In this document: one piece after another, positions 45,026 through 47,986 of the stretch
Layout of the letters: every line of letters begins with the position of its first letter
Numbering within the stretch: position 1 is the stretch's first letter
NCBI RefSeq assembly: GCF_036226445.1
Contig: NZ_CP108474.1
Span: 2,294,001 to 2,358,000 of the forward strand
DNA length: 64,000 nucleotides
Direction of reading: 5' to 3'
DNA from: Streptomyces sp. NBC_01255
GTDB lineage: Bacteria; Actinomycetota; Actinomycetes; Streptomycetales; Streptomycetaceae
The notes under the pieces: generated by a model
What the model saw: only the letters and a program-made list of their open reading frames with translations
What the model was told of the DNA's origin: nothing
Databases searched by the model: none
Made by a program: the position numbers and the translations under genes

Positions 45026-46822
45026 ATGGACCCGGTGATCATCGTGGGCGCTGGGCCGGTCGGCCTCGCGCTCTCCCTCGCGCTCGCCGCGCAGGGCGTA
45101 CCCAGCGTCGTCCTCGACGAGGGCTCCGGCAAGGAGGAACCGCGCCCCGCGCGGACCGCCGTCCTGCGCGCCGACATGGCCGCCATGGTCGAGCGCCTCG
45201 GCTGCACCACCCTCCGCGACGAGGGCGTGCGCTGGGTCGGCTGGCGCAGCATGCGCCGCCGTCAGCTGACCCGCCACACCCCGCTCGACCTGGGACTCAG
45301 CGGTACGGAGGAGTGGTCCGAGGACCCCGACGCCCCCTCCGAACCGGCCGCCCCCCTCCACATCCCCCAGCACGCCCTGGCACGCGGGCTGCGCGACGCG
45401 ATCGCCCACCAGAAGCTCGTCCGGCTCGTCACCGACGCCCGGCTCGACACGATCGAGCAGGACCGGGACGGGGTCGTCGCCCACACCAGGGGCCCGGAGG
45501 GCACGTGGTGGCGCGGCAGCCACCTCGTCGGCTGCGACGGGGCCCGGTCCACCGTGCGCAAGCTGCTCGGCATCCGTTTCCCCGGCCGTACGGCGGTGGA
45601 GCGGCACGCGGTCGCCGCGCTGCGCACCGAACTTCCCTGGCCCGGCGAGGCCCTGCTGCACCGTCAGCCCCCGTGGCGGGGCGCCGGTGAGGAGATCGCC
45701 GCCCGCCCGCTGCCCGACGGGGTGTGGCGGATCGACTGGCTGCTGCCGCCCCGCGGCGAGCTCGTCACCCCGGACGCGCTGGTCACCCGCATCCGCGAGA
45801 CCCTGGCCGGCTGGTGCGACGGGGTGACACCCCCGTACGAACTCATCGACACCGGCGTCCACACTCTGCACCACCGGCTCGCCCGCCGCTGGCGCGTGGA
45901 CCGGGTGCTGCTCGCCGGCGACGCGGCGCATCTGCTCGGCGCGGTCGGCACCCAGGGCCTCGACGAGGGGCTCAGGGACGTGGACAACCTCGCCTGGAAA
46001 CTCGCCCATACCTGGCACCACGGCGCCTCGGAGCGACTGCTCGACAGCTACCAGAGCGAGCGGCGGACGGCGATCGCCTCCCGACTGCGCGCGGCGGACC
46101 AGTCGCTGCCCGCGCTGCGCGGCGGCGGTGGCCTGCGGACGTACCTCCTCGGGGCCGCCCGCGTCCACGACACCCTGCTGACCGACGGCCATGTGGGGCG
46201 AGGCCCGCTCGGCGCGCCCCCCGCGTACCCGCACTCCCCCCTCGCACCTCCGAGCGCCGACGGGCAGACCCCGGTGGGCACTCCGACCGGCGCCCCGGTC
46301 GAGGACGTCCGTGTGACCGCCCCGGACGGCACGACCGTACGGCTCCGGGACCGGCTCGGTCAGGGCCGGCTCCTGGTCCTCCTCGTCGCCCCCGGAACCG
46401 GCGTGTGGGACCGCCGTCACTGGCGGAGCGCCGGCATGATGCCCCGGCTCGAAGAGGCCGTCCGCGCCCTCCCGGCGAAGGCCGAGGTTCTGGTGACCGA
46501 GGCGTATCCGGGTGCTCCGGCCCACGCCGTCCTGCTCGTCCGGCCCGACGGGCACCTCGTCGCCTCCTTCGCGGGGGTCCGCCCGGAGGAGCTGTACGCG
46601 GCGGCCGACGCGGCCCGCGGCGGGTCCGCCACCGCGGACGCGCCGTCCGAGGAGCCCGCAGGGGGGTCCGCCGCTATCTCCGCCAAGGTTCCGGCCAAGG
46701 TGCCGACCAAGCTCCCTGCCGACGTTCCTGTCGGGGTTCCTGTGGAGGTTGCCGCCGAGTTGTCCGTCGAGATCTCCGTCGAGATGCCTGCCGACAGTGA
46801 CCACACGGTGGACATCCATTGA
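45026..46822 (+). CDS. FAD-dependent aromatic-hydroxylase-type monooxygenase
   Basis: A 598-residue PHBH/MhpA-like flavoprotein. The FAD dinucleotide motif is VIIVGAGPVGLALSLAL (4-20). The DG motif is VGCDGARSTVRKLLGI. The GD motif is LLAGDAAHLLGAVGTQGLDE, followed by RDVDNLAWKLAH. A thioredoxin-like C-terminal domain (about 430-540) is followed by a 55-residue degenerate repeat tail (KVPAKVPTKLPADVPVGVPV). The ATG at 45026 has AGGAG eight bases upstream. It stands alone between the glu operon and the cysteine-dioxygenase unit. Substrate unknown. Confidence 0.87.
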   Translation: MDPVIIVGAGPVGLALSLALAAQGVPSVVLDEGSGKEEPRPARTAVLRADMAAMVERLGCTTLRDEGVRWVGWRSMRRRQLTRHTPLDLGLSGTEEWSEDPDAPSEPAAPLHIPQHALARGLRDAIAHQKLVRLVTDARLDTIEQDRDGVVAHTRGPEGTWWRGSHLVGCDGARSTVRKLLGIRFPGRTAVERHAVAALRTELPWPGEALLHRQPPWRGAGEEIAARPLPDGVWRIDWLLPPRGELVTPDALVTRIRETLAGWCDGVTPPYELIDTGVHTLHHRLARRWRVDRVLLAGDAAHLLGAVGTQGLDEGLRDVDNLAWKLAHTWHHGASERLLDSYQSERRTAIASRLRAADQSLPALRGGGGLRTYLLGAARVHDTLLTDGHVGRGPLGAPPAYPHSPLAPPSADGQTPVGTPTGAPVEDVRVTAPDGTTVRLRDRLGQGRLLVLLVAPGTGVWDRRHWRSAGMMPRLEEAVRALPAKAEVLVTEAYPGAPAHAVLLVRPDGHLVASFAGVRPEELYAAADAARGGSATADAPSEEPAGGSAAISAKVPAKVPTKLPADVPVGVPVEVAAELSVEISVEMPADSDHTVDIH

Positions 46823-46855
46823 TTCCGCGCGGGCGCGCATGGTGTACTCCGGAGC

Positions 46856-46942
46856 GTGACCGACACCGATGTGCGCCTGTGGCGGAGGGTCCATATGGAC
46901 CTCGTCCGCTATGCGGGCTGCATGTGTCGCCCGTCCTGCTGA
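46856..46942 (+). CDS. Cysteine-codon leader peptide upstream of cysteine dioxygenase
   Basis: A 28-codon ORF starting GTG at 46856. It contains DVRLWRRVHMDLVRYAG and ends in CMCRPSC, so three of the last seven codons are cysteine (C22, C24, C28) just before the stop. This is the layout of small actinobacterial leader peptides that sense an amino acid through ribosome stalling. Polycysteine small ORFs of this kind act as cysteine-responsive attenuators in mycobacteria. It ends 94 bases before the cysteine dioxygenase start. GGAG lies only one base from the GTG, so it may be leaderless or poorly initiated. Confidence 0.82.
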   Translation: MTDTDVRLWRRVHMDLVRYAGCMCRPSC

Positions 46943-46980
46943 CTTCGCCCCCTTCCCCGCGCGCGCCCCGCCACTGACGT

Positions 46981-47030
46981 CCGTCCGTGTGCCCGGTGCC
47001 GTCGCGCGCTCGTCGCGAACCTCAGGACGG
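46981..47030 (+). promoter_or_regulatory. Possible RBS-masking helix in the cysteine dioxygenase leader
   Basis: CCGTCC at 46981-46986 is complementary to GGACGG at 47025-47030, which is the core of the dioxygenase ribosome binding site (AGGACGG). A small CGCG-type hairpin sits between. A ribosome stalled on the upstream cysteine codons could change this folding. Pairing seen; function inferred. Confidence 0.4.
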
Positions 47031-47036
47031 TCATCC

Positions 47037-47582
47037 GTGCCCCAGCGTGTCCCCGCTCCCTCCCCTGTCGTGTCCACGCCCCCCGCCGCCGCCCCGACGG
47101 CGGCCGAACTCCTCGACTTCGTCCGCCGGACGGCCGCCGACCGGGACCTCGTCGACTCCCTGCCGCTCGACCCCGAGGGCCGTACGTGGGTACGGCTCGA
47201 CGGCCCCGGCGGCAGCGAGGCCTGGCTCATCGGCTGGCCGCCCGGGACGGGCACCGGCTGGCACGACCACGCCGAGTCGCTGGGCGCCTTCGCCACCGCG
47301 CGCGGGGCCCTGACCGAGAACGCCCTCGCGGTCCGGCTGCCGGCGAGCGGCTGGAAGACCCTGGAGCTGGCCGACGGCCTCGATCGCTCCCGCCGGCTGG
47401 CGGACGGGGACGGCCGGGCCTTCGGCCGCCACCACGTGCACGAGGTGCTCAACGAATCCCCGGACACCCACGCGGTGTCGGTGCACGCGTACTATCCGCC
47501 GCTCCCCCTGATCCGGCGGTTCAGCCGAGCGGGCGCGGTACTCCGCCTGGAGCAGGTCGAGCGCCCGGAGGACTGGCAGTGA
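47037..47582 (+). CDS. Cysteine dioxygenase (cupin)
   Basis: A 181-residue cupin-fold enzyme oxidising cysteine to cysteine sulfinate with non-heme iron. Iron-ligand candidates are H76 and H78 in GWHDHAESLG and H135 in HHVHEVLNES. The downstream SVHAYYPPL (H150, Y152) matches the catalytic His/Tyr pair of the family. The GTG at 47037 has AGGACGG upstream; the open frame extends earlier only through the leader region. Its stop overlaps the rhodanese start by four bases. Confidence 0.9.
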   Translation: MPQRVPAPSPVVSTPPAAAPTAAELLDFVRRTAADRDLVDSLPLDPEGRTWVRLDGPGGSEAWLIGWPPGTGTGWHDHAESLGAFATARGALTENALAVRLPASGWKTLELADGLDRSRRLADGDGRAFGRHHVHEVLNESPDTHAVSVHAYYPPLPLIRRFSRAGAVLRLEQVERPEDWQ

Positions 47583-47986
47583 GCACGGAACGAGTGGGCA
47601 TCGACGAACTGCTCGAGCGGGTCAGGGCGGGCATCGACCGCATCGAGCCCCGCGCCGCCCACGAGGCGTACGAGGCGGGTGACGCCCTCCTGGTGGACAC
47701 CCGCTACGCGGCCCTGCGGCAACGGGACGGGCTGATCCCGGGCGCGCTGGTCGTGGAGCGCAACGAGCTGGAATGGCGGCTCGACCCCCTGGGCAGCCAC
47801 CGCGCCCCGGAGGCGGACAGCCATGACCTGCGGGTGGTCGTGCTCTGCAACGAGGGATACGCCTCCTCCCTCGCGGTCGAGTCCCTCCGCCGCCTGGGGC
47901 TGCACCGCGCGACCGACCTCGTCGGCGGCTTCCAGGCCTGGAAGGCAGCGGGCCTCCCGGTCCTGCTCCCGACTCCCCGCGCCTGA
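47579..47986 (+). CDS. Single-domain rhodanese-like sulfurtransferase
   Basis: A 135-residue rhodanese-fold protein with the active-site cysteine in VVVLCNEGYASSLA (C90). Family marks are ALLVDTRYAALRQRDGLIPG at the front and DLVGGFQAWKAAGLPV at the end. Coupled by a GTGA overlap to cysteine dioxygenase, it belongs to the same sulfur-metabolism unit, probably handling sulfane sulfur or sulfite derived from cysteine. The stop is followed by a 21-bp duplication and a terminator. Confidence 0.92.
   Translation: MSTERVGIDELLERVRAGIDRIEPRAAHEAYEAGDALLVDTRYAALRQRDGLIPGALVVERNELEWRLDPLGSHRAPEADSHDLRVVVLCNEGYASSLAVESLRRLGLHRATDLVGGFQAWKAAGLPVLLPTPRA

Follow-up and report, generated by a model that had tools for sequence, protein, structure and literature searches.

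The window analysed here, a 64-kb stretch of Streptomyces DNA, holds on its forward strand a cysteine dioxygenase (CDO)-family gene (47037..47582, GTG start at 47037), followed by a rhodanese-domain gene (47579..47986, also + strand; PF00581, 51.5 bits) whose start overlaps the CDO stop. The CDO_I profile PF05995 matches the former with 161.8 bits, and its sequence contains HDH, SVHAY and WVRL motifs. These would correspond to the HxH motif, the Ser-His-Tyr motif and the substrate-binding Arg of type I cysteine dioxygenases in this enzyme (CDO1). At the place of the Arg in WVRL, the closest structures (chains 8qfr and 8qfl) have Ala. CDO1 is probably of the SCO5772 type, with the window locus presumably equivalent to the S. 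coelicolor gene neighbourhood on the recA/recX side. Upstream lies a 28-codon ORF (46856..46942, + strand) with a GTG start, encoding MTDTDVRLWRRVHMDLVRYAGCMCRPSC and ending in GCMCRPSC-stop. It is separated by 94 bases from the CDO gene and reads in the same direction. The window sequence and the profile scores hence confirm this part of the original prediction, which placed a 28-codon ORF ending CMCRPSC-stop 94 bases before a CDO and rhodanese pair. A GGAGGG sequence 5 bases ahead of an internal ATG (codon 14; 46884-46897) could permit a second, shorter leader start, and this ATG is kept in 76/79 of the leaders described below. A search of the whole 64-kb window found no Rfam family matching at gathering score.

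The ORF product scores 38.9 bits against NCBIfam NF042934 (cis_reg_atten, putative leader peptide), for which the curated cut-off is 27, and 37.4 bits when the entire genome is scanned. Because the score exceeds the curated cut-off, the ORF is not a chance occurrence; it is real and under selection. As expected for this family, the ORF is short and in the same orientation as the gene of sulfur metabolism that directly follows it. A match to NF042933 (leader_Ms5788A) reaches 19.4 bits, below the cut-off of 45, and does not indicate membership. The genome scan with NF042934 returned 11 matches, 8 of which are over the cut-off. Targets of the other matches were named from our own reading of the downstream ORFs, by which only some could be identified: these include a ThiS/MoaD-like and cysteine synthase pair, a sulfite/nitrite reductase-like gene, a sulfurtransferase, flavin monooxygenase-like genes, and binding-protein or transport genes. 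The leader-CDO locus is ordinary in kind and unusual in target.

To describe conservation of the leader, we used 80 CDO loci from named genomes (the best 80 of 506 relatives), 79 of which are from Streptomyces. Ahead of CDO, 78 of these 80 loci and the window itself carry a leader that follows RVHMDLVRYAGCVCRPSC with slight deviations. For one of the other loci (L039) no leader was found, with just 50 bases of upstream contig available. The remaining one (L016, 2272-2365) has a normal 5' half of the leader and lacks the UGU codon, the stop and most of the stem through the hairpin, which reflects either a deletion or an assembly collapse. A separate draw at the level of the order (60 genomes, 58 with a match, best 30 fetched, own genome included and overlap with the named loci possible) yielded a leader in 30/30 loci, 29 by a first pattern and one (L195) by a second. 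L222, which diverges most among the Streptomyces copies fetched, has the leader as well, and two loci of another genus contain a recognisable relative, RTHLDTVR[F/Y]VGCLCC. Within the 79 leaders, the residues of RVHMDLxRYAGC other than Cys are almost invariant.

Conservation of the leader is seen at the RNA level too. The rarely used codons AGG (74/79), CAT (64/79) and TAT (56/79) recur, compared to 2.9%, 11.8% and 6.4%, respectively, in the genes for CDO and rhodanese at the same loci. Furthermore, a long hairpin of 26 pairs (P0, 46861..46929, + strand) can arise within the leader ORF, its arms meeting at GGGTCC-ATAT-GGACCT. Over 81 distinct leaders 98.9% of the P0 cells are paired, compared to 31-52% after displacement of one arm by 1-3 bases. 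No compensatory (two-sided) change was observed over the same 81 leaders, and P0 is for that reason a matter of consistency as opposed to proof.

The region directly upstream contains a putative promoter (46819..46848, + strand) consisting of TTGATT (46819-46824), an 18-base spacer and TGTACT (46843-46848), the last box ending 7 bases before the leader start. TTGA or TTGT is found near -35 in 79/79 loci. The -13..-8 box reads TGTACT in 64/79, TCTACT in 8/79 and TGTAAT in 3/79, with the four others one base out of register or different. A sigma-70 consensus scan of 46780-47100 called no promoter. Given that the conserved boxes end 7 bases before the leader start, the transcript is likely leaderless, with the GTG predicted at +1. 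A scan of 46780-47100 for intrinsic terminator-like sites gave none, and the locus does not resemble a classical transcription attenuator in this respect.

The original prediction considered three late Cys codons as sensors. Late cysteines are indeed present, but the three codons are not equivalent. Codon 22 (TGC, 46919..46921, + strand) encodes Cys in 79/79 leaders, with TGC used in 78, and codon 28 is Cys in 69/79. Codon 24 (46925..46927, + strand) is the family motif cysteine (residue 12 when the H/A of HxDL is taken as the first), and is TGT in 79/79 CDO leaders; we propose this to be the stall codon. The same choice extends to leaders of other genes. In 80 Streptomyces leaders from 29 other genomes (the best-scoring places listed outside the own genome, minus one running off its contig), the motif Cys is TGT in 80/80, including 55/55 among those not located before CDO. 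Other Cys codons in these 80 leaders are TGC in 84 cases and TGT in 5, and TGT makes up 3.5% of 86 Cys codons in the background. Within the own genome TGT occupies the motif position in 10 of the 11 NF042934 matches, the exception (L009, below the cut-off) having Ser. A pattern search outside Streptomyces (best-scoring loci; 27 loci, 20 genera) found TGT at the motif Cys in 29/29, with TGC predominating at positions 9 (14/19) and 4 (18/20); the background frequency of TGT is 66/303 Cys codons in ORFs of at least 200 codons. Since the search relied on a protein profile, the way in which leaders were selected does not account for this codon preference. A plausible reason is wobble decoding, which would make ribosomes stall preferentially at UGU; RNA pairing of UGU is an alternative. 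Being invariant, the UGU lends itself to a simple and general test of the idea that the choice of one codon fixes where ribosomes stall.

The 3' end of the leader is predicted, from sequence and folding, to mask the Shine-Dalgarno (SD) region of CDO. The last leader codons contain CCGTCCTG (46931..46938, + strand), the left arm of a putative SD-sequestering stem P1, and the right arm CAGGACGG (47023..47030, + strand) is its exact complement and coincides with the CDO SD region. A second conserved stem, P2, is formed by TTCGC directly after the leader stop (46944..46948) and GCGAA (47015..47019), both on the + strand. The P1 left arm CCGTCCTG is found in 64/79 loci and the right arm CAGGACGG in 75/79. 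The longest Watson-Crick run in P1 is at least 8 in 63/79 and at least 6 in 73/79, a length of at least 6 being reached in 6.1% of cases with shuffled arms. For P2, 75/79 loci combine a TCGC just behind the stop with a GCGA ahead of the SD. The gap between leader and CDO spans 66-174 bases across loci and holds hairpins of varied sequence. A pyrimidine-rich, G-poor stretch follows the P2 left arm (46949-46958, and in related loci) and is a possible Rho entry site.

With respect to the covariance analysis proposed originally for 46850-47040 in relatives, pairing of P1 is kept and covariation is weak, since the arms are nearly constant inside Streptomyces and several leader variants simply drop a pair. 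In another genus, the P1 arms differ and yet pair by eye (CCCGTCCG with CGGACGGG in L220, GCCTGT with ACAGGC in L221). When duplex energies were tested for 25 CDO leaders drawn from the genus, the mean z was -1.84, with 17 below -1. This set is not independent of the named loci, with which at least 4 contigs agree in length, and includes one leader with a doubtful gene start (L153). The test was not significant for the other family leaders, i.e. those of cysM (mean z -0.16, n=23), sulfite reductase (-0.57, n=6), LLM monooxygenase (-0.05, n=8) and two smaller groups (-0.19, n=5; 0.21, n=2). RNAalifold gave no convincing SD pairing for the cysM (23) and LLM (8) groups; for the sulfite reductase group UGUCC was paired with the SD, in an alignment of few sequences (5). 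On the duplex energies, an SD-masking geometry common to the whole leader family is not supported and not claimed here, and the comparison of polarity with other leaders rests on precedent.

The genome also encodes a second CDO_I protein on the reverse strand (L093), probably of the SCO3035 type. We take L093 to be the equivalent of SCO3035 from the S. coelicolor gene neighbourhood on the whiB and cofD side. A cysteine-rich short ORF, MPATTATAATHARGFRRAVQVDCRCCCSSC, ending VDCRCCCSSC, lies upstream of this gene. Among 17 second-type or distant CDO_I loci, 12 have a cysteine-rich short ORF upstream (at least 3 Cys within the last 22 residues, plus a start codon), one of which (L206) is doubtful; no such ORF passed this filter for L205, L210, L215, L217 and L218. 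Bases of the SD region are paired to the leader end in 6 of 12 loci (start with an MNSD-like N-terminus), and 5 bases are paired in the own-genome copy. Elsewhere in the class, a cysteine-rich ORF precedes CDO in 4/23 cases (one of these a Streptomyces second-type locus), compared to 3/23 on the antisense strand and 0/23 downstream. These frequencies do not support a class-wide rule for cysteine-rich ORFs before CDO, which was therefore rejected.

To model the effect of ribosome position, the ribosome footprint was masked during folding and the mean unpaired probability of GGACGG (the SD) was calculated. Averaged over 79 loci, the modelled value is 0.036 with no ribosome, and 0.126, 0.250, 0.221 and 0.220 with the A-site on codon 22, UGU 24, codon 28 and the stop, respectively. 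Values for the window alone are 0.002 with no ribosome, 0.092 for codon 22, 0.301 for UGU 24, 0.083 for codon 28 and 0.079 for the stop. When leading edges of +11 to +17 were compared for 20 loci, codon 22 was always lowest among the three Cys codons, and UGU 24 overtook codon 28 only from +13 on. With a shuffled P1 left arm the SD became more accessible (0.135 compared to 0.027), and the real sequence gave the lower value in 71/79. Modelled accessibility exceeds 0.5 in at most 3/79 loci in any state, so folding gives the direction and not the amplitude of a switch. Since mean SD accessibility lay above the ribosome-free value for each of the four ribosome positions, stalling should turn CDO on. 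The folding model predicts expression of CDO in cysteine shortage, which is how assimilation genes are expected to respond.

The opposite logic had been put forward originally, namely that a cysteine-degrading enzyme should be expressed when cysteine is high. A ribosome waiting at codon 22 in low cysteine would have a footprint ending before the P1 left arm and leave the site hidden, while a steady flow of ribosomes to the stop in high cysteine would open the site and allow CDO to be made. Such a scheme fits the usual role of the CDO enzyme, and the 79-locus mean agrees with it insofar as the SD is less open when the ribosome stalls at codon 22 than when it stands at the stop; for leading edges between +11 and +14, a ribosome at codon 22 hardly opens the SD at all (0.040-0.045, 20 loci). 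In the window, however, codon 22 is not below the stop, and UGU 24 gives the highest value. The Cys-x-Cys spacing that codon 22 creates is also seen in 19 other-genus leaders, at least 5 of which precede sulfurtransferases (identified by eye), i.e. an assimilation-type target; the sulfurtransferase leader of the own genome (L007) does not have this spacing. Since sulfurtransferase leaders share the spacing, inversion of the logic by the extra codon 22 is retained as a rival, and we consider it unlikely.

Published expression data likewise argue against reversal. In the available text of PMC4991794 (with its Table 1), RNA-seq of S. coelicolor after 2 h in 0.15 mM H2O2 has SCO5772 up 8.0-fold and SCO3035 up 6.54-fold, within a set of 28 up-regulated genes that includes the assimilation, synthase and sulfonate uptake genes cysNDCHI, cysA, cysM and ssu. 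This evidence concerns another species, the mRNA level, and H2O2 stress as opposed to cysteine limitation, and the authors ascribe the response to HbpS-SenS-SenR (PMC4991794, same text). SCO5772 is named a putative cysteine dioxygenase in the portion consulted of PMC3087709. Taken together, induction of CDO at high cysteine lacks support from folding on average, and SCO5772 rises with the cysteine-synthesis genes. No cysteine-feeding experiment on the leader-CDO locus was found in the literature searched.

The same induction is relevant to the nature of the signal. With unchanged polarity, the sensor could be the nascent peptide or the thiol/redox state in place of Cys-tRNA, with H2O2 or thiol oxidation causing arrest. 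The near invariance of the non-Cys residues in RVHMDLxRYAGC would be consistent with a peptide acting in this way, as would the response of SCO5772 to H2O2 (PMC4991794) and that of cysA, cysI and cysM to diamide, reported in the accessible part of PMC4340878. Much of that conservation can nevertheless be explained at the RNA level by P0, and oxidants would presumably deplete free cysteine too; we hold this form of sensing to be improbable. Alternatively, the ORF might be translated with neither peptide nor stalling being regulatory, the stem simply setting a constant low expression of CDO. The low SD accessibility in the ribosome-free state would suit a constant level of this type, and the literature searched yielded no experiment on the leader; the exact retention of the UGU and the leader layout before many different genes argues against this reading, which we hold to be very improbable.

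We therefore favour, as the probable reading, that 46856-46942 encodes a probably leaderless NF042934-type cysteine leader that places the CDO-rhodanese operon under translational attenuation. A conserved leader that reports cysteine very probably controls the pair, as had been predicted. With ample Cys-tRNA, ribosomes would complete the leader and depart, and its last codons would then pair with the CDO ribosome-binding site (through P1, assisted by P2 and the variable hairpin), keeping CDO off. Untranslated message may additionally be lost through Rho. With scarce Cys-tRNA, a ribosome would wait at UGU codon 24 and cover the P1 left arm, freeing the CDO ribosome-binding site and allowing CDO to be made. 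The sequences themselves show the ORF, the upstream boxes, the pairing and their conservation, and the effect of where the ribosome stands comes from the model; both the stalling itself and its polarity in the cell are what we infer.

The locus is a clean, conserved example of a shortage-reporting leader that precedes a gene for degradation, and from its anatomy one would expect induction and not repression. That a cysteine-destroying enzyme is apparently switched on in cysteine shortage is a puzzle, and the rationale is not proven. The likeliest explanation for CDO in a low-cysteine regulon is that it acts as a brake against cysteine overshoot during induced synthesis, or that it has an in vivo thiol substrate besides free cysteine. 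The existence of two leader-bearing CDO paralogues raises the question of what role cysteine dioxygenases have during cysteine shortage. A broader proposal can be offered tentatively, and we hold it to be somewhat doubtful: leaders across the actinobacteria might sense cysteine via the identity of a single codon, a UGU that never varies, is decoded by wobble and always stands 12 residues into the motif, with ribosomes slipping past UGC and halting at UGU where the halt unmasks the next gene. Both Streptomyces CDOs would then be under cysteine-rich leaders, and synthesis and destruction would be switched on together as a brake against overshoot in oxidative stress.

Comparison with known systems places the leader close to other NF042934 members, with which it shares the H-x-D-L-x-R-(5)-C layout and the UGU. 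It differs in having an additional conserved YAGC-x-CRPSC tail, and in its target: the other targets that could be named in the genome are assimilation, scavenging or transport genes, whereas here it is CDO. The polycysteine leaderless sORFs of M. smegmatis (Ms5788A and kin), which Canestrari and colleagues reportedly described in 2020 as acting by translational attenuation, resemble the CDO leader in their Cys codons near the stop, and also in their leaderless start and mode of attenuation, both of which are predicted for the CDO leader. In contrast to those mycobacterial sORFs, the CDO leader misses the NF042933 cut-off and precedes a cysteine-degrading enzyme. Among the papers listed in the literature searches, which covered few subscription papers, none was found to describe a cysteine leader upstream of CDO or a UGU that never varies. 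A system reported in 2005 (PMC1262725, available text) similarly combines a short ORF containing Cys codons near its stop with the lack of an intrinsic terminator, and a pyrimidine-rich gap was proposed as a Rho site. Its authors report no conserved terminator hairpin, whereas the CDO locus has a conserved SD-sequestering stem (PMC1262725, same text). Finally, the sections consulted of PMC8079986 describe the leader peptides of S. lividans TK24 as mostly leaderless; the table of 8 attenuators given there has none for CDO, and the metL leader ends RCMCRRMCAF, resembling the GCMCRPSC end of the CDO leader.
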